Below are positions 5,726 to 16,032 of a stretch of 64,000 nt of DNA, in pieces. Position 1 is the first letter of the stretch; every line of letters starts with the position of its first letter. The notes beneath the pieces are model-generated. The model was not told where the DNA came from. It did no database searches and worked only from the letters and a program-made list of their open reading frames with translations. This stretch comes from Longimicrobiales bacterium (GTDB lineage: Bacteria; Gemmatimonadota; Gemmatimonadetes; Longimicrobiales; Gaopeijiaceae): NCBI GenBank assembly GCA_028278645.1, contig JANQDZ010000068.1, positions 1 through 64,000 of the forward strand, read 5' to 3'. A program made the translations under genes and the position numbers.

Positions 5726-7042
5726 TTAATGCCAGCGACCGCCGCCACCACCCCGACGCCCTCTTCCCCGTCCGCCGGACATGCGGGGGTTCACCACGTT
5801 GTTGAAGACCGAACCGAACGTGTATCGGAAACCTACGAACACAGAGAACTCGTAGTCGGTGCCAAGCTCTCTGCGCCTCAGGAGAACGTCCTCGTCGGGT
5901 ATGTTCTCTTTGGGCTCGTAGATCTGGTCCTTGACCCGAGCTATGTCGGCCCAGATGTCCAAACTGAATCCCCTGAAAAGCCGGATCTCGAGGTTGGAGA
6001 AGAGTTGGACCCGATGTTGCCTGAAATCATCGAGATAGTTGGATCCTTCGAGGCCGATGGAGAGCTCTCCCCATGTCTGGTTAAAAGCCGAGGAAACCCC
6101 CAGGCTATGGGTTACCCGGGTCTCATTGGTCTTTTCGAATAGGGTGATCTTTTCGTAGTCGAAGGACGAAATCTCCACTTTGTACTGGAATGTGAACTGC
6201 CGCTGGGTCGATTCGGAATAGGGGAAAATGTTGTACTCGAGGGCCGGGCCTATCCTGAGAGCCAGATCCTGGTTTTGTCGCGTAGATCCGGATGCCGTCC
6301 CGGTAGCCCCTGCAGACCAGTTCGGGTTGAGGCTCCAGACGACGATTCCTCCTACATCGAAGCTCCGGGAGGTGAAGGTCGATTCTTCCCCACCGCTGAA
6401 CTCGAACCTGTTCCTTCTCCAGTTTCCTCCGGCCCAGAAATCGAGCTTCAGGTCCTCGGTCGTTCGGCTACCGGAGAGGGATCCGTCAAGAGACAAGGAG
6501 CCTTCACGGCTGGCTCCGGACACGTCCCCCCCTGCCGACACGCTGAACACCCACAGATCCCACGGGTCGTCCAGGGGTCTTTCGTTGACAAGGCCCGCGG
6601 GGGGACGGTAGGAGATATCCAGGCGGGAACCAACCGGTGTGGAGGCGACGAACGGGACCAGGCCGAGCTTGAAGGTATGAACCAGGCCAGATCGGGATTC
6701 ATCCTCCGTTTCGTCAGGGAGAGAGACGTAGCGGAGAGTGTCTTGGGAGCCCTCCCACTCCTGAAGTCCGATGAAGAAGAAGGAATATTCCTCTCCTCCG
6801 GCCCCGGTTTCCTGGGAGGTCACTAACACGTGCAACTGTGCGTCCATCCGGTCCCGAACGTAGCTGATAAAATCCACTTCCCTGCGGAAATGGTCGAAGT
6901 CGCAGATATATCCTTCACAATCCAGGAATACTCTCAGGGGTTCTTCGTTTTCCGTTCCGCTCGACTGGGCCCCGGTATCGAACGGGCAGGCGGAAAGGAC
7001 GAGTGGTAGGAGTGGGAGGAGATAAAGCAATCGGCGTCTCAT
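5726..7042 (-). CDS. Outer-membrane-like protein with C-terminal barrel and Arg/Gly tail
   Basis: 438 residues. The signal peptide has a possible lipobox (LVLSAC). An N-terminal conserved domain follows with CDFDHFRREVDFISYVRDR and HVLVTSQETGAGG, then many alternating amphipathic strands typical of an outer-membrane barrel. The tail is Gly/Arg-rich (GGRGRGRRGGGGG). I believe similar DCxGxxCDFDxFR proteins are common but uncharacterised in Gemmatimonadota and Bacteroidota; no function is known to me. Upstream, at 7137-7155, lies a direct repeat identical in layout to that in front of the adjacent kinase gene, suggesting control by that two-component system. Confidence 0.7.
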   Translation of the reverse strand: MRRRLLYLLPLLPLVLSACPFDTGAQSSGTENEEPLRVFLDCEGYICDFDHFRREVDFISYVRDRMDAQLHVLVTSQETGAGGEEYSFFFIGLQEWEGSQDTLRYVSLPDETEDESRSGLVHTFKLGLVPFVASTPVGSRLDISYRPPAGLVNERPLDDPWDLWVFSVSAGGDVSGASREGSLSLDGSLSGSRTTEDLKLDFWAGGNWRRNRFEFSGGEESTFTSRSFDVGGIVVWSLNPNWSAGATGTASGSTRQNQDLALRIGPALEYNIFPYSESTQRQFTFQYKVEISSFDYEKITLFEKTNETRVTHSLGVSSAFNQTWGELSIGLEGSNYLDDFRQHRVQLFSNLEIRLFRGFSLDIWADIARVKDQIYEPKENIPDEDVLLRRRELGTDYEFSVFVGFRYTFGSVFNNVVNPRMSGGRGRGRRGGGGGRWH

Positions 7043-7136
7043 GAGGCCTCTGCCCCCATAGCGAGTAAAAGGACCTTGAGCTTCATCGAAGCTATTGGGG
7101 TCCCGATTCCGGGGAGTGATGACCGCGTGAGATGTG

Positions 7137-7155
7137 GGTTAGGAGTAGGTTAGGA
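7137..7155 (-). promoter_or_regulatory. Direct repeat, putative response-regulator site (barrel gene)
   Basis: Two copies of GGTTAGGA (7137-7144 and 7148-7155) are spaced exactly 11 bp, one helical turn, as for dimers of OmpR/PhoB-type regulators. In the direction of the gene starting at 7042 the half-site reads TCCTAACC, about 95 bp before the start codon. The same arrangement in the same orientation is found at 9676-9694. Confidence 0.55.
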
Positions 7156-7181
7156 GGGCAGGAAGAGAGTTGGGTCGCCCC

Positions 7182-7877
7182 TCACACGTCTAGTCTATAC
7201 CCGGCCTTCCTGATGGTGAGGATATGGGTGGGGTTCGAAGGATCGTCCTCGAGTTTCCGCCTCAGTTCGCGGATGTGTACGTCCACGGTCCGCGTGAAGA
7301 TTTCCGTGTAGTTGTACTCCCAGACCTCCTTAAGGAGATCGGTCCGACTCGCGATCGCCCCGTTTCGGTCAAGAAGGGCCATCAGGAGATCGAACTCTTT
7401 CGGGGCCAGTTCAACCAACTCTCCACCTTTGAAGACAGTGCGCCGAGAAGGATGGATCTCCACCTCCCCGAAGCGGCGGACCGGTCCCGACGTTGGGCCG
7501 ATGGCGGTAGGGTGTTGTGTCCGGCGGAGAAGGGCTCTTACGCGTGCCAGTAGCTCGAGGGTGGAGAAGGGCTTGGTGAGGTAGTCGTCCGCGCCGAGTT
7601 CGAACCCCATCAATACATCGACCTCCTGGCTTTTCGCAGTGAGGATAAGGACTGGGGTTCGAATACCCCTGGCCCGAAGATTCCCGAGCACTTCGTACCC
7701 GTCCTTCCCCGGGAGCATGAGATCCAGGATGATCAGGTCGAGCTCGAGTTTCTCTGCCAGGTCGAGGCCCTTCTCCCCTTCCTCTGCACGCTCCACGTGG
7801 TGCCCCTCGAACTCCAGGACCATGGCGAGGCCTTGGGCGAGGTCGGTGTTGTCTTCGACCAGAAGGAGATTGGCCAC
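7182..7877 (-). CDS. OmpR/PhoB-family response regulator
   Basis: 231 residues. The N-terminal receiver domain shows the acidic pair (LLVEDN), the phospho-acceptor Asp in LDLMLPGKDGYEVL (about residue 52), the switch Thr in LILTAKS and the conserved Lys in DDYLTKPFS. The C-terminal winged helix (about 130-231) contains ELAPKEFDLLMALL and RTVDVHIRELRRKLEDD, the recognition helix of the OmpR family. It begins 3 bp after the histidine kinase stop, so the pair forms one operon with the kinase first. It probably binds the 11-bp direct repeats found before the kinase and the barrel gene. Confidence 0.93.
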   Translation of the reverse strand: MANLLLVEDNTDLAQGLAMVLEFEGHHVERAEEGEKGLDLAEKLELDLIILDLMLPGKDGYEVLGNLRARGIRTPVLILTAKSQEVDVLMGFELGADDYLTKPFSTLELLARVRALLRRTQHPTAIGPTSGPVRRFGEVEIHPSRRTVFKGGELVELAPKEFDLLMALLDRNGAIASRTDLLKEVWEYNYTEIFTRTVDVHIRELRRKLEDDPSNPTHILTIRKAGYRLDV

Positions 7878-7880
7878 TTC

Positions 7881-9593
7881 TTATCCTTCCTCGACGGACA
7901 CTGGGGACGAAGCAGAGGCCCGGTCCGGTGCTTTTGGAAGCTCGACCACGAACCGAGCCCCTCCTCTTTCTCCCTCCTCCACCCAAACCCGCCCCTTGAG
8001 TATCGACGAAAGCTCGGCAACCAGAGCAAGGCCGATACCACTTCCCTGGACGGTGCCGTTGGAGTCTTGTTCCAGTCGGAAATAGGGATCGAATACCCTC
8101 TCTCTTTCCTCTGGGGCGATCCCCGGGCCTTCATCTTCCACCGAGATCCGTACCACGCCGTCTGCTGAGGTTGCCTCGACTTCCACCGCCTGCCCGACGG
8201 GGCCGTATTTCAGGGCGTTATCTAATAGGTTCGCGAAGATTCGGTGTAGATCCGACCGGTTTGCCAGCACGTGTTGTTCCGGGTCTGACTGGACGCGGAT
8301 CTTGGCGGTACGGGCCTCCGCGAGGGGGAGAAAGGCTTCCGTGGTCTCCTCGAGGGCGGAGCTGAGGTGGATCTCCTCCACCGCGCCGGAACTGATAGGA
8401 GCCCGTCTGGAGGGGGAGAAATGGAGGATGTTCGCTACCAGATGAGAGAGACGCCTTGCTTCTCTCTTGATCACCCCGGTCGACCACCGACGCTTCTCAT
8501 CTGTTTCGAGGCGTCCGCTATCCAGGAGGTCGGCGAAGACCTGGATCTGGGTGAGAGGGGTCCGGAACTCGTGGGAAACGCTTGAGACAAAGTCGTCCCT
8601 CATCCGGGCCAGCTGATGCTCCCTTCGGATCTGGAACAGCGCCGCCGAACCCACACCCAGTGTGAGAGCGATGAGTGCGAGAAGGAGCGGGACCCGCTGC
8701 CTCGGCAACCCTCCAATGATGAGGCTCCCTGCGGCCTCTTCCCGAATGGATGCGCCTACGACCAACGACCCGAAGTCCGCGTTCAGGGTGTCTTTTGACG
8801 GAAATTCGCCGGGAAAAAGACCCGGGGATCTGAACAGGGTCACCTCCCCAGGGCCGATTACGGAGACCTGGAGCAGGGAATCATTCCGCTGAGGGGGAGT
8901 GGCCATCGTGGGCAGGAGTGGACCCTCTGAGAGCCAACCAGAAATAAGGTCCTGGAATCCCGAAGCGTCGGCCACTACCCCGTAGGCCATGGCTTCCCCG
9001 CTTCTCCTCGATCCGGATACGAAATAGATGGCCACCCTGGGGGTGGAAAAGATTGAATCTGCAGCGAGGGTGATCAGGCCGTCGGACGAGCGGCGATTGG
9101 ATTCCCGATGCCGGGAAATCTCCCGGGCCAGGTGGAGCTTCTCCGCCGTCGGGATCGTGTCGGGCGCAGTGACGACGACCGTATCCCGGAGGTCCGCGCG
9201 AAAGAACCAGGCCGTTTCCCGGAGGGTGGCACAACGGCACCTTTGCCTCCGGATCACATCATGGAAGTCGTTCTCCATGACGATGGGGTTGGGCCGCCTC
9301 CGATCGAGGCTCCAGGGAATATCGTCGAAGGTCCACCTCTGAATGTCTCCGATGTTCTCTTCGATGCGCTTGGTGAACTCGAGGATTGCCAGGCCGGCGT
9401 ACTGCGTCAGGACGCCGTCGACGGTTCGTCGATGGGATCGAGCCGCGTCGAGGGCTTGATAACCCATCCACACTGAGAGCCCGAGGGTGACGACCAAGAA
9501 GAAAACGAGGAGTCTTGTCCCCCTTGGAGAACGAAATCGGGCTGCTTTGATCTGACGCACGAAGAAACCGACCAGAAAAAGGGCAAGCCGCAC
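7881..9593 (-). CDS. Membrane sensor histidine kinase
   Basis: 570 residues from a GTG start. One transmembrane helix lies near residues 28-48 and a large extracytoplasmic region extends to about 300; the second helix is LLLALIALTLGVGSAALF. HisKA follows with the phospho-acceptor His in VSHEFRTPL (about residue 340). The HATPase domain has N box NLLDNALKYG, G1 EDEGPGIAPEE and G2 GSGIGLAL. The sensor domain, which includes RRQRCRCATL with two cysteines, is not one I recognise. The regulator follows immediately. A direct repeat at 9676-9694, about 85 bp upstream, suggests autoregulation. The start lacks a clear ribosome-binding site. Confidence 0.92.
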   Translation of the reverse strand: MRLALFLVGFFVRQIKAARFRSPRGTRLLVFFLVVTLGLSVWMGYQALDAARSHRRTVDGVLTQYAGLAILEFTKRIEENIGDIQRWTFDDIPWSLDRRRPNPIVMENDFHDVIRRQRCRCATLRETAWFFRADLRDTVVVTAPDTIPTAEKLHLAREISRHRESNRRSSDGLITLAADSIFSTPRVAIYFVSGSRRSGEAMAYGVVADASGFQDLISGWLSEGPLLPTMATPPQRNDSLLQVSVIGPGEVTLFRSPGLFPGEFPSKDTLNADFGSLVVGASIREEAAGSLIIGGLPRQRVPLLLALIALTLGVGSAALFQIRREHQLARMRDDFVSSVSHEFRTPLTQIQVFADLLDSGRLETDEKRRWSTGVIKREARRLSHLVANILHFSPSRRAPISSGAVEEIHLSSALEETTEAFLPLAEARTAKIRVQSDPEQHVLANRSDLHRIFANLLDNALKYGPVGQAVEVEATSADGVVRISVEDEGPGIAPEERERVFDPYFRLEQDSNGTVQGSGIGLALVAELSSILKGRVWVEEGERGGARFVVELPKAPDRASASSPVSVEEG

Positions 9594-10038: not shown

Positions 10039-10578
10039 ATGAGGCTCGTCCTGGATCGCCGCTCTTCAAGGGGCGGGATATGCCTTGGGCTCGCACTGGC
10101 TTCTTTGTTTCTCGTGGGCGATCCACAGCCTGCATCGGCACAAGGTCCCAAAGAAACGAGTGTAAGCCTTTTTGTAGGTGCCTCCGAATACGATTTGTCT
10201 GGGGTCGGATGGACAACGGTGTTTGGCCCTCGTGTCGATCACAGGATACTCGGGCCTTTTTCAGTACAGCTATCTCTACCGATCTATGGATACGAGCCTC
10301 AGTTCGGAGATAGGCTCACCTATGTCTTGCCGGAGCTGAGCCTTCTGATCAGTCCGCGTAGAGCTCAGATGGCCCCTTACTTTGGATTCGGTGCAGGTTG
10401 GTCATTTGTGATATCCGGGCCAAACGTCCCCGACGCTTGGACCTTACATGCGGCTCTGGGTATCCGCGCTCAAGTCGTTAGTTCCTGGGATCTACGGAGT
10501 GAATTTCGCGTGCGCACGATCGATCCTTGGGCGGGGGTCACCGCTGATATCAGTGGTGGACTTGGCTATCGTTTCTGA
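10039..10578 (+). CDS. Small outer-membrane beta-barrel protein
   Basis: 179 residues with an excellent ribosome-binding site (AGGAGG, 8 bp upstream). A signal peptide ends near PASAQ, then alternating hydrophobic/polar strands with aromatic residues run to a C-terminal phenylalanine (GGLGYRF), the hallmark of a BAM-inserted barrel. The size suits an 8-stranded OmpX/OmpW-like barrel. No specific family is recognised. It stands alone between two palindromic repeats. Confidence 0.72.
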   Translation: MRLVLDRRSSRGGICLGLALASLFLVGDPQPASAQGPKETSVSLFVGASEYDLSGVGWTTVFGPRVDHRILGPFSVQLSLPIYGYEPQFGDRLTYVLPELSLLISPRRAQMAPYFGFGAGWSFVISGPNVPDAWTLHAALGIRAQVVSSWDLRSEFRVRTIDPWAGVTADISGGLGYRF

Positions 10579-10898: not shown

Positions 10899-12476
10899 TT
10901 ATCCCGTCTCCAGCACCTGTACCGAGATGCGCTCTGCTCTCGCTTCGTGCAGGGCGGAGAGGACCTCGGTCATGGATCGGTACGGAGCTTCCGGATGCGT
11001 CTTCACCACCGCGATCAGGTTGGGATTGGAGGCGACCTCGGTGAGCCAGAGCTGTCCAACGTCACCAACCCTCATCTGCTGGACATCGGACCTCCTGTCG
11101 CCACGCCTGGCCTCGACAATGCCGATGGGCAGCACGACCAGCTCCAGGATGTTCCTGGCGCTGACCCGGACCTCTCCGGGCCCTGGCTCGCCGGTGACTG
11201 GGCGAGCAGGACCGGGTCCACGTCCGTCTCCGCGATCGGGCAGGACCACGCGTAGGCCTTCCTCGGTCGACGTCGAAGGCGCCACCCCTGGGATCTCGAA
11301 CACGACCCGCAAAACCCCGGCCTCCACCAGCTCGTTCTGGAGTCGATCCATGACTCCGTAGGGCGTCCCCGGGTCGCCGCCGATGAAGGCGACCAAATGC
11401 CCGTCGGAAGCTTCATAAAGCGGACCCACCACCTCTGACACCTCCTCGACGTGGTACGGCACGCCGTCGATGACTACCGCACCATTTCGTTCCACCTGAA
11501 GGCGGATCAGATCCTTCTGAGACGCCTCGACGACGCTCAGTTGCGCTTCCGGCCCCTGCCGAGTCGGGACAGGCACCTCGCACGAGGCCATGACCAAGAG
11601 CACCGCCAGGCCGAGGGCAGTGGTGATACCGAGAATGGATGTGGTCCGAGGGGGCGTGGTCATGGCGAGGATCCTCTTCTGGAGCGGTGCGTGAGATTCT
11701 GAGAAAGCGGCGGCGGCGACCAGCGGCCGTGTCCCGCGGGCTGAGACCTTCAGCAGCGTATCGCCGTAGTTCCCGATGTCCGGTCGGCGTCGAAGAACCC
11801 GCCGATCACAGTCCAGCTCCAGCGCGTGCAGCAGCCGGGACGCCAGGAGCCAGACAACTGGGTTCCACGGCGCGAGTATCCGCGCGATTCGCGTGCCCGC
11901 CATAACCACCGGATCTCGCGCACGGATATGCTCTTGTTCGTGCAGGACCACCAGGTCCTGCTGGTCTCTCGGCATGGACATCATCCACTCGGGCATCAGA
12001 ATTCGCGGGCGGAACACGCCGGAAACGGCGGGCCCCAGGTCAGGCGTCTGCCAGACGTGGATGCCGTCGACTGCGCGGGGGCGCCAGGACGCGCCCACCT
12101 TGGCGAGCCGCTTGGCGGCTACGGTCCACTTCAACGCGAGGGCCAGGGAGGCGAGCAACCAGGCAGCGATCAGGAGGGTGTCGAAGGCAGGTCCCGCTTC
12201 TACTGGCGCCACGACAACGAACTCCGACAATCCAAGTAGGCCAGTCCCCTCTAGGCCGGCGTCGGGTTGGGCGCCCGGAACGGCGCTCAGCGTCACGTTC
12301 CCGGCCCGGGGGACTGCCATGAACGCCAAGGGGAGGACCAGCGCGAGTCCGAGTGCCGCGACCCAGATACCGCGCTCAGGTTTCCCATATCGGCGTAGCA
12401 CCTTGGCGCCTGCGAAGGCGGCCAGGAGGATAGGGATCCCGACCGCTGCGGCGTAGAGCATCCCATAGCCGATCAT
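10899..12476 (-). CDS. BlaR1/MecR1-like M56 membrane protease with ExbD-like tail
   Basis: 525 residues. Several N-terminal membrane helices surround an M56 metallopeptidase domain with the zinc motif HEQEH (about residues 185-190) and the downstream ALELDCDRRVL. A further hydrophobic helix at about 290 (LGLAVLLVMASC) follows. The extracytoplasmic remainder looks like two ExbD/TolR-type periplasmic modules: the first includes NGAVVIDGVPYHVEEVSE and YGVMDRLQNELVEAGV, the second ends YRSMTEVLSALHEARAERI. In the Bla system the protease senses a signal and triggers cleavage of the BlaI repressor. Its ATG overlaps the stop of the repressor gene by 4 bp. The ExbD-like tail in place of a penicillin-binding sensor is unusual. 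Confidence 0.8.
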   Translation of the reverse strand: MIGYGMLYAAAVGIPILLAAFAGAKVLRRYGKPERGIWVAALGLALVLPLAFMAVPRAGNVTLSAVPGAQPDAGLEGTGLLGLSEFVVVAPVEAGPAFDTLLIAAWLLASLALALKWTVAAKRLAKVGASWRPRAVDGIHVWQTPDLGPAVSGVFRPRILMPEWMMSMPRDQQDLVVLHEQEHIRARDPVVMAGTRIARILAPWNPVVWLLASRLLHALELDCDRRVLRRRPDIGNYGDTLLKVSARGTRPLVAAAAFSESHAPLQKRILAMTTPPRTTSILGITTALGLAVLLVMASCEVPVPTRQGPEAQLSVVEASQKDLIRLQVERNGAVVIDGVPYHVEEVSEVVGPLYEASDGHLVAFIGGDPGTPYGVMDRLQNELVEAGVLRVVFEIPGVAPSTSTEEGLRVVLPDRGDGRGPGPARPVTGEPGPGEVRVSARNILELVVLPIGIVEARRGDRRSDVQQMRVGDVGQLWLTEVASNPNLIAVVKTHPEAPYRSMTEVLSALHEARAERISVQVLETG

Positions 12477-12850
12477 CGGTCTTCCCCCATCTCGCCCAAG
12501 CGGCGGGTCAGTAGATCCCGCATGCGGCGTAGTTCGTCGGGCTTTACGCCCGAGTCCACCAGCTGAAGGAGGAGTTGCTCAGGGGAACCACCGAACAACC
12601 GCTCCCTCAGGTGGTCGAGGGCGCTGAGTCCTGCGGCGTCCTTTTCCACCTCGGCCGTGTAGCGGTGCGCCCGGCCTTCCGGGCTACGGGATACGTATCC
12701 CTTGCCCTCCATAACCTTGAACATGGTGAGCACGGTGTTGTGGGCCAGGTCGTCCTCGAGGTGCTCCCTGACCTCGGCGACCGTCGAGGGGCCGCGGGCC
12801 CACAGCACACCCATGATGTCCAGTTCTCGTTTGGTGAAGCGCACGCCCAT
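12473..12850 (-). CDS. BlaI/MecI/CopY-family transcriptional repressor
   Basis: 125 residues. The N-terminal winged helix has FTKRELDIMGVLWARGPSTV and NTVLTMFKVMEGKGYVSR, the recognisable Penicillinase_R pattern, then a C-terminal dimerisation and cleavage region. It is the first gene of a two-gene operon with the M56 protease, whose start overlaps by ATGA. AGGAG lies 8 bp before the ATG. A strong promoter with an overlapping palindrome lies just upstream, consistent with autorepression. Confidence 0.92.
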   Translation of the reverse strand: MGVRFTKRELDIMGVLWARGPSTVAEVREHLEDDLAHNTVLTMFKVMEGKGYVSRSPEGRAHRYTAEVEKDAAGLSALDHLRERLFGGSPEQLLLQLVDSGVKPDELRRMRDLLTRRLGEMGEDR

Positions 12851-12883: not shown

Positions 12884-12922
12884 ACGATAATCGGGCCGCG
12901 CTCTGCTGTCAACTATAAAGTT
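12884..12922 (-). promoter_or_regulatory. Promoter and putative operator of the BlaI-like operon
   Basis: On the minus strand TTGACA (12912-12907) is separated by exactly 17 bp from TATCGT (12889-12884). The near-palindrome AACTATAAAGTT (12911-12922) overlaps the -35 edge, a natural repressor site. A second candidate, CCTTAGGTATTAGG, lies near the transcription start (about 12873-12860). Confidence 0.6.
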
Positions 12923-14781: not shown

Positions 14782-14805
14782 GTGCGGAGGAACGTGGAGA
14801 AGTTT

Positions 14806-16032
14806 ATGAAGTGGTGGAAAAGGAGTGTGGTGGCGATAGGTCTGGCTTCACTTGCGGCGTGCGGCGCGGGCGAGAGTCGCAGTGTCGAGACCGAGGCCGA
14901 GCGGATCCACCGTGAGGCCATCGTGATCGACGGTTATGTCGGGACGACATCCCAGATCATGTGGTCGGACTGGGACTTCACCGAGAGGCACCCGGTGGAG
15001 GAATCGCACGTGGACCTTCCGCGCATGATCGAGGGTGGCCTCGACGCAGCTTTCTTTTCCATCGGAGCCGTGGATGCGGTGACGGGGGCCGCCGCAGTTC
15101 AGGTTTCTCTGGAGGAGATCGAGCGGTACCACCGTTTGACAGAAGCACATCCGGATAAACTTGCCCTCTGCCGCTCTGCGGAGGACGTGCGCCGTGCACA
15201 TCGTGACGGAAAGACGTGCATCCTCCTCGGCATGGCCGGCGGCCACAACATAGCCGAGAGCTTGTCAGTACTTCGAGCCTACCATGATCTCGGGCTTGCC
15301 TACATGCACCTCAACCATGACAGCAACACGTCGTGGTCCGATGCGGCTCGGGAAGAACCTGAACACCACGGGTTGACCGAATTCGGAAAGAACGTCGTCA
15401 AAGAGATGAACCGTATTGGGATGATGGTCGACATCTCACACGTTGCCGACGAGTCAGCTTGGGCCGCATTAGAGGAGAGCAGGGCCCCGGTTATCGCCTC
15501 CCATTCGGGTGCCCGGGCTCTGGCGCCGCATGTACGGAATATGCCGGACGACATGATCAGGGCGGTCGCTGCTTCAGGTGGCGTAGTCATGGTCGTCTAC
15601 AATCTCCCCTTCCTCGATGGGGAGTACTACGAAGCTTGGGAGGCCATCCAGCCAGAGCTCGCCGCGTTCGGTGCCGAGCTTCAGGAGAGGTATCCCGGTA
15701 TTGAGAACATCCCGAGATGGCGAGAGGAAGGTCGAAAGTTCCTGGCGGCGCGTATGCCCACGGTGCCGTGGACCCGTATCGTGGACCACATCGATCACAT
15801 CGTCGCCACAGCCGGGGTGGATCACGTGGGTATCGGGTCGGACTTCGATGGAGCAGTCATGCCCGAAGGGATGGAAGACGTCTCCAACTTGCATAAGATC
15901 ACGGAGGAGCTTCTTCGACGAGGGTATTCCGAGCCTGATATCAAGAAGATCCTGGGAGGTAATATCCTCCGAGTGATGGAAGACGTGGCCGAGACGAGTG
16001 TGAGGCTCAATCTGGACCCACCAGAGGTTTAG
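14806..16032 (+). CDS. M19 membrane-dipeptidase homologue with altered metal site
   Basis: About 408 residues, lipoprotein signal (ASLAACG). The M19 fold is clear: GGHNIAESLSVLRAYHDLG, LNHDSNTSWSDAA, MVDISHVADES, VIASHSGARAL and DHVGIGSDFDG. In active family members the start reads DGHxD and the third metal ligand is Glu in [IV]EGGH. Here these positions are DGYVGTT and GMAGGH, so the HxD pair and the bridging Glu appear replaced, while the later His residues (DISH, ASH) remain. This implies an inactive or functionally changed protein. Starts at 14782 (GTG) and 14806 (ATG) are possible; the latter gives the cleaner signal peptide. Confidence 0.85.
   Translation: MKWWKRSVVAIGLASLAACGAGESRSVETEAERIHREAIVIDGYVGTTSQIMWSDWDFTERHPVEESHVDLPRMIEGGLDAAFFSIGAVDAVTGAAAVQVSLEEIERYHRLTEAHPDKLALCRSAEDVRRAHRDGKTCILLGMAGGHNIAESLSVLRAYHDLGLAYMHLNHDSNTSWSDAAREEPEHHGLTEFGKNVVKEMNRIGMMVDISHVADESAWAALEESRAPVIASHSGARALAPHVRNMPDDMIRAVAASGGVVMVVYNLPFLDGEYYEAWEAIQPELAAFGAELQERYPGIENIPRWREEGRKFLAARMPTVPWTRIVDHIDHIVATAGVDHVGIGSDFDGAVMPEGMEDVSNLHKITEELLRRGYSEPDIKKILGGNILRVMEDVAETSVRLNLDPPEV

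Follow-up and report, generated by a model that had tools for sequence, protein, structure and literature searches.

The 64,000-nucleotide stretch of DNA analysed here (positions 1 to 64,000 of contig JANQDZ010000068.1 of a Longimicrobiales bacterium), which we call the window, carries on its reverse strand a BlaI-BlaR1-type operon whose protease gene ends in a double-ExbD tail. The features discussed below, given with the evidence for them where there is some to add, are the following.

12907..12922 (-): tentative repressor operator over a -35-like TTGACA, AACT-TTAT-AGTTGACA
12473..12850 (-): BlaI/MecI-type repressor, 125 aa (Pfam Penicillinase_R 90.4 bits, cut-off 22.6)
10899..12476 (-): M56 (BlaR1-type) membrane metalloprotease with a double-ExbD tail, 525 aa (Pfam)
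11928..11942 (-): HEQEH zinc motif, residues 179-183 (sequence)
11673..11678 (-): Shine-Dalgarno (SD)-like AAGAGG in the Lys267-Arg268 codons (duplex -5.8 kcal/mol)
11661..11663 (-): putative nested in-frame start ATG (Met272), 27 codons before Cys299
10899..11663 (-): putative nested product, a 254-aa lipoprotein precursor (inferred from the family signal and the g5 gene)
11580..11636 (-): fourth transmembrane helix (TM4, residues 281-299), which ends in the lipobox-like MASC with Cys299 (hydropathy, family alignment)
11283..11516 (-): ExbD module A, ExbD2-like, residues 321-398 (identity to the genome's own ExbD2, Foldseek)
10902..11171 (-): ExbD module B, ExbD1-like, residues 436-525 (identity to the genome's own ExbD1)

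Pfam recognises Peptidase_M56 in the 525-aa protein with 75.7 bits (cut-off 31), LELDCD (residues 219-224) lies downstream of the HEQEH at residues 179-183, and hydropathy gives four hydrophobic segments (residues 6-24, 37-55, 97-115 and 281-299). With the BlaI/MecI-type repressor gene next to it, the stop codon of which overlaps the protease start (ATGA), the protein has the properties of a BlaR1-type M56 antirepressor, and the initial annotation of 10899-12476 as an M56/BlaR1-type protease with HEQEH is confirmed. A BlaI-like gene is also directly upstream of 69 of the 96 M56 genes that we collected from the class, and for nine others the stretch analysed leaves no room for one. The NCBIfam model blaR1_generic gives the protease part 43.5 bits (cut-off 400). 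No penicillin-binding sensor was found in the protease; after TM4, Pfam and NCBIfam return ExbD/TolR only. Since no beta-lactam-binding domain was found in the protein, its signal is likely to be something other than a beta-lactam.

The tail (residues 321-525) had been described as two ExbD/TolR modules, and this description holds. With the Pfam ExbD model, the whole protease reaches 34.5 bits, over two stretches, and the tail by itself 36.2 bits (cut-off 25.4). Module A shares 49% identity with the ExbD2 of the same genome (over 73 aa) and 56% with the ExbD2 of a family relative. Module B by itself falls short of the Pfam ExbD cut-off (16.3 bits), but over 88 aa it shares 61% identity with the ExbD1 of the same genome, a bona fide ExbD gene, and on that identity it is an ExbD. 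The two modules match each other weakly (E = 2e-4) and have different best ExbD proteins, and so they are, by these matches, different ExbD paralogues and not one module repeated. Module B keeps 29 of the 36 columns that are conserved at 90% or more in ExbD proteins of the genome's own type, vs 10 of 24 variable columns; for module A, the difference is weak (12/19 conserved vs 10/21 variable columns).

The structural comparison with ExbD that the initial annotation called for succeeded for module A and failed for module B. The AlphaFold2 models of the tail and of module B were made from single sequences without an alignment. The tail model is poor overall (pLDDT 42.8), with moderate confidence for module A alone, and module B modelled alone did not fold (pLDDT 44). 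The five best PDB chains that Foldseek finds for the module A model are all ExbD periplasmic domains, and four of these chains were solved in complex with TonB or with the D-box peptide of TonB; the match to 8p9r has a TM-score of 0.84 by target (E = 2.6e-5), and TolR follows at ranks 6 and 7. A PDB sequence search with the tail gave two weak matches, both to proteins other than ExbD. The nearest PDB sequence to the ExbD1-type protein is TolR, whereas the sole PDB sequence match of the ExbD2-type protein is ExbD. The position of E. coli ExbD L132 corresponds approximately to F393 in module A (placed by a one-residue alignment extension) and to V519 in module B (placed by eye), and both look hydrophobic. 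The tail contains the periplasmic alpha/beta domain of ExbD/TolR, module B by sequence alone, and it lacks the ExbD-type N-terminal membrane helix with its proton-carrying Asp; TM4 (ILGITTALGLAVLLVMASC) has no acidic residue.

The probable models for the two modules are encoded in the same genome, on a contig other than that of the protease, in a Ton operon with genes for CdaA, ExbB, ExbD1, ExbD2 and TonB. The order of the two ExbD genes there is ExbD1-ExbD2, whereas in the protease tail it is reversed to ExbD2-ExbD1, and the ExbD membrane parts present in the operon proteins are missing from the tail. This operon (L066:2206-5463, minus strand) adjoins its CdaA-type diadenylate cyclase gene; the order ExbD1-ExbD2-TonB can also be seen by eye in L067, L068 and L069, and of these, L067 and L069 also have a CdaA-like gene upstream. 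A profile made from our tail and that of a relative, L008, finds adjacent stand-alone ExbD genes in many of 395 genomes of the phylum; among the matches listed, one gene of such a pair matches half B and the next matches half A.

The double-ExbD fusion was found in two of the 154 genomes of the order, with up to 18 candidates scored per genome; these are ours and L008. A sister relation of the two M56 cores is rejected (p-AU 0.04, quick tree). As for ExbD1, its tree places our module B with its family (99/98) and the L008 module B with the ExbD1 of the L008 genome (98/81), but a tree that joins the two passes the test as well (p-AU 0.11). In the tree of ExbD2, the module A sequences of the two fusions join (92/93, not starred), possibly from long-branch attraction, and constraining each of them to its own family is also compatible with the data (p-AU 0.15 and 0.27). 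Both one capture of the ExbD tail and two captures fit these trees. Two congeneric genomes (90% and 67% complete) had no M56-core match to our protease, and a plasmid search with a relative's protein gave no match.

The other M56 genes of the class place the tail in a wider pattern. The genome itself has five M56 genes; two of the paralogue tails are 65-76% identical to the C-terminal part of its own TonB, and one paralogue carries a receptor plug domain. With an ExbD pair in our gene and TonB copies or a plug in the paralogues, the tails appear to copy parts of the Ton system. The sample of the class comprises 96 of 98 M56 genes found; L010, in which the frame changes after the zinc motif, and L091:3581-4401, cut by the locus end, were dropped, and three of the 96 are cut in the tail at a locus end. 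The draw was non-random, the loci being the best-scoring ones plus 56 chosen for spread among the matches listed. Pfam finds TonB_C in 36 of these tails, Plug in 35, ExbD in two and other domains in a few, and three custom profiles classify 70 of the 96 as TonB, Plug, both or ExbD and leave 26 as something else. The relative nearest by protease core, L007 (60% identical), ends in a CarboxypepD_reg domain; its STN match stays below the cut-off. Because the tail type switches at least 22 times over the M56 tree, tails must be exchanged frequently, and most of the exchanged tails are, by their domain matches, Ton-system parts. A search of six genomes from another family in the phylum gave no M56 match. 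Among the rare tails are one PDZ domain and one SecDF P1 head (each 1/96).

It had been proposed that the repressor/protease pair senses envelope state rather than a beta-lactam. The ExbD/TolR tail and the lack of a beta-lactam domain agree with that, and the paralogue tails narrow it: the ExbD pair and the sister TonB and plug tails point to the Ton energy-coupling system as the sensing theme, to judge from domain content.

The end of TM4 has the appearance of a bacterial lipoprotein signal. A Cys occurs within three positions of this site in 75 of the 96 M56 genes, exactly in the column in 68 of them, and 74 of these 75 Cys, ours included, fit a lipobox pattern that we take to be of the PROSITE PS00013 type, vs 14 of 242 other upstream Cys; the helix before it is signal-peptide-like. 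The Cys is present in all of the Plug (33/33), Plug plus TonB (6/6) and ExbD (2/2) genes, in 20 of the 26 with other tails and in 14 of the 29 with TonB alone. The residue after the Cys is acidic (Asp or Glu) in 51 of the 75 genes, and our gene has Glu at +2 after Cys299. The ordinary N-terminal lipobox proteins of the same loci, a small and rough baseline, have an acidic +2 residue in 3/19 cases, and since two of those three are separate g5 copies (see below), the clean baseline is 1/17. In E. coli, an acidic residue at +2 tends to hold lipoproteins in the inner membrane. The genome encodes LspA.

About 27 residues before the lipobox there is a putative second start. In our gene alone the evidence is slight, the SD duplex of -5.8 kcal/mol being not significant against synonymous recoding (p 0.122). 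In the family, most M56 genes have an R-I/L-x-x-M stretch before TM4, and 75 of the 96 have the Met in the aligned column. The two Arg sites of this stretch are AGG or AGA in 87/175 cases vs 624/4792 for Arg elsewhere in the same genes. The invariant Arg is encoded by AGR in 45 of 57 representatives that are less than 60% identical, vs 217/1991 for Arg overall, and the other 13 conserved Arg columns have 0-26% AGR. We also scanned anti-Shine-Dalgarno pairing before each codon against synonymous recoding with the gene's own codon usage (95 rows, with L001 left out, the 57 representatives, 282 columns). The Met column (M in 47/57) has the strongest SD excess of all 282, with a mean z of -1.66 and a mean of -7.0 kcal/mol. 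The three columns beside it have mean z values from -1.57 to -1.26, and the next best column reaches -0.41, against a background over the 282 columns of mean z 0.03 (SD 0.22). The family therefore keeps an SD and a start codon beyond what the protein sequence requires, by the synonymous null and in a second sample as well.

A start codon at most two codons away from the Met column, combined with an SD of -5 kcal/mol or better, is present in 62 of the 75 genes with the Cys and in nine of the 21 without it. The second sample, obtained with a motif search looser than that of the first, gave an M56 frame at 28 of 31 loci, all outside the 96, and here start plus SD occurs in 5/6 genes with the lipobox vs 2/22 without (Fisher 0.001, a guide value because related genes are treated as independent). 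Several observations count against a nested start. The same SD threshold is passed by 221 of 747 other in-frame ATGs (and by 82 of 93 listed gene starts), and 13 of the 75 Cys-containing genes have no start plus SD by these thresholds; one of them is L005 of the same genome (-4.8 kcal/mol), and six others, from a single clade, have the ATG but CGN codons. L007 retains the nested start without the Cys. Apart from these observations, one clade of M56-TonB genes (L016, L025, L072, L073, L084, L112, L116 and L120) lacks all of the lipobox Cys, the aligned internal Met and the AGR codons together. The product of a nested start would resemble an ordinary lipoprotein precursor by its sequence, with a basic n-region, TM4 as h-region and a lipobox about 27 residues on, and in our case the putative product would consist of a 27-aa signal peptide, the Cys and the double-ExbD tail.

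In one genus, here called g5, the same unit exists as a gene of its own. All 11 g5 genomes contain a small ORF that matches TM4, the lipobox and a plug tail, without the protease. In four cases (L093, L106, L111 and L098), it is directly downstream of an M56-Plug gene, and in six further genomes a second match with a long frame is nearby on the same contig; G403 had no such nearby second match on its contig. In L111 and L098, a protease remnant is kept upstream of the separate unit, in a longer frame. The omega values for six pairs among four g5 species (0.21-0.34, 123 codons) indicate purifying selection. The presence of the ORF in 11/11 genomes and the low omega imply that TM4 plus tail is maintained as an independent unit. 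The ORFs at L093:2095-2490 and L106:1841-2239 are plug-domain, lipoprotein-like and apparent duplicates of the TM4-plus-tail part of the protease.

We suggest, with a probability of about 0.5, that the protease gene of this operon specifies two proteins, an ExbD-mimic sensor protease and a nested ExbD-mimic lipoprotein, and that their common tail reads TonB. The full-length product would cross the membrane with four helices, have its zinc site in the cytoplasm and carry, in the periplasm, a tail copied from the genome's own ExbD2-ExbD1. From the nested ATG with its own SD, ribosomes would make the 254-aa precursor, with TM4 as signal peptide and the same tail, which would then be lipidated. 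According to PMC10907165, one TonB D-box is held in E. coli by the periplasmic domains of two ExbD chains, through strand recruitment, and ExbD L132 is required for D-box binding. The tandem ExbD2-ExbD1 most likely represents a two-ExbD clamp for the TonB D-box within one chain, and the proline-flanked hydrophobic stretches EIEI and DITI after the membrane helix of the genome's own TonB could be the candidate D-box. The full-length form would report occupancy of TonB or of the motor to the protease. In BlaR1, an occupied sensor signals to the cytoplasmic protease, and this cuts BlaI (PMC7593790); by analogy our protease would cleave BlaI and so derepress the operon. The lipoprotein form, perhaps at the inner membrane given its Glu at +2, may act as a buffer, co-receptor or competitor for the same partner.

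Alternatives to this reading concern either the number of products or the ligand. It is unlikely, in our opinion, that only the full-length protein is made, with Lgt and LspA modifying or cutting the TM4 lipobox so that the tail is released as a lipoprotein or is lipid-tethered, and with the SD-like stretch incidental. The lipobox persists with unrelated tails, and TM4 would run in-to-out like a signal peptide (by analogy with BlaR1, and with three basic residues before it and one after), both of which would suit such processing. However, this leaves unexplained the AGR excess, the in-register Met and the tendency of start plus SD to be found together with the Cys, and there is a weak hint from the Cys-less genes, in which A-x-A, a motif as for signal peptidase I, is found near the end of TM4 in 8/9 with start plus SD and in 6/12 without. 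SD-like sequences within genes have been proposed to slow ribosomes, and because the stretch sits just before a membrane helix, it might be a pause site that aids TM4 insertion, with Met and Cys structural and the gene making one BlaR1-like sensor with an ExbD tail. We find this quite improbable, since a pause does not need a start codon, yet M occurs in 47 of the 57 representatives, no column elsewhere exceeds a mean z of -0.41, and the separate g5 unit begins at about the point of the nested start. It is more doubtful still that the arrangement is a relic in which an M56 gene and a downstream lipoprotein gene became fused, with the old start used weakly or not at all and the ExbD tail a functionless accident. 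The rarity of the double-ExbD fusion in the order (2/154 genomes, with up to 18 candidates scored in each), the 22 or more switches of tail type and the two congeneric genomes with no M56-core match would fit a relic, but the synonymous signal holds among representatives less than 60% identical, the modules, module B above all, have retained ExbD core columns, and the separate g5 copy is under purifying selection.

Apart from whether one or two products are made, the tail may bind peptidoglycan or native ExbD/ExbB instead of TonB and sense the state of the cell wall, which we consider somewhat unlikely. TolR-like domains have been reported to bind peptidoglycan, and TolR is the nearest PDB sequence to the ExbD1-type protein. 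Against this ligand, the module A model matches TonB-complexed ExbD, the ExbD2-type protein matches ExbD alone in the PDB, and the pairing of ExbD2 with ExbD1, like the sister TonB_C and Plug tails, fits a Ton theme.

The two-product reading can be compared with some known systems. The BlaR1/MecR1-BlaI/MecI systems of staphylococci likewise have a BlaI-type repressor gene beside the gene of an M56 zinc protease with four transmembrane helices, and a C-terminal extracytoplasmic domain after TM4. However, that domain is a penicillin-binding domain, whereas ours is a double ExbD with a lipobox at TM4 and a putative nested lipoprotein. ExbD/TolR proteins (PF02472; ExbD in 8p9r, 8vgc and 8vgd) share the fold of module A and the sequence of both modules, and the presumed D-box-binding position stays hydrophobic in our tail. 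Unlike them, our protein has two unlike modules per chain, lacks an acidic ExbD-type helix and is fused to a protease. SpaO and HrcQ of type III secretion also have internal starts and yield a full-length and an in-frame C-terminal product. In contrast to these, reuse of the TM helix as a signal peptide would send our internal product out of the cytoplasm. Searches of open-access full text returned nothing on BlaR1 with a lipobox, an internal lipobox or a nested lipoprotein signal peptide, and among the open-access matches listed (titles and abstract starts) there was no description of M56/BlaR1 with TonB/ExbD or of lipoproteins with alternative starts.

To our knowledge, the signals of M56/BlaI pairs beyond beta-lactam resistance are largely open, and this locus offers a concrete candidate, the contact between ExbD and TonB, as well as a gene layout whose internal start would let one TM helix serve a second time, as the signal peptide of a lipoprotein. 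The pattern may extend across the class, in what are presumably Gemmatimonadota, and we regard it as close to, but not quite, an even bet that many BlaR1-like genes there are two genes in one, with swappable Ton-mimic sensors that are also made as free lipoproteins. If so, a regulated-proteolysis system would watch the Ton motor by imitating its parts, the annotation of many such genes would overlook a secreted protein, and these bacteria would possess a transcriptional system able to sense how far outer-membrane transport is energised.

The promoter of the operon has a tentative operator, and AACTNNNNAGTTGACA occurs as a single copy in the genome. A related palindrome, CTACT-N8-AGTAG, is found in seven of the 44 upstream regions of relatives, while any one palindrome appeared at most twice in 20 shuffles. 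A search of the genome with two operator patterns found no partner gene or regulated gene beyond the operon itself; each pattern has one site, the first at the promoter of our gene and the second on the contig of the paralogue L004, about 400 bases before its M56 match.

Some neighbouring genes of the window may be mentioned. A convergent gene at 10039-10578 (+) encodes a small protein without a Pfam match that by eye looks secreted and barrel-like. The interval 5726-9593 (-) has genes for histidine kinase and response regulator proteins and, after them, one for a 438-aa protein, also without a Pfam match, that has a lipobox-like start by eye. Another lipobox-bearing protein, at 14782-16032 (+), resembles by eye an enzyme of the renal-dipeptidase type (M19).
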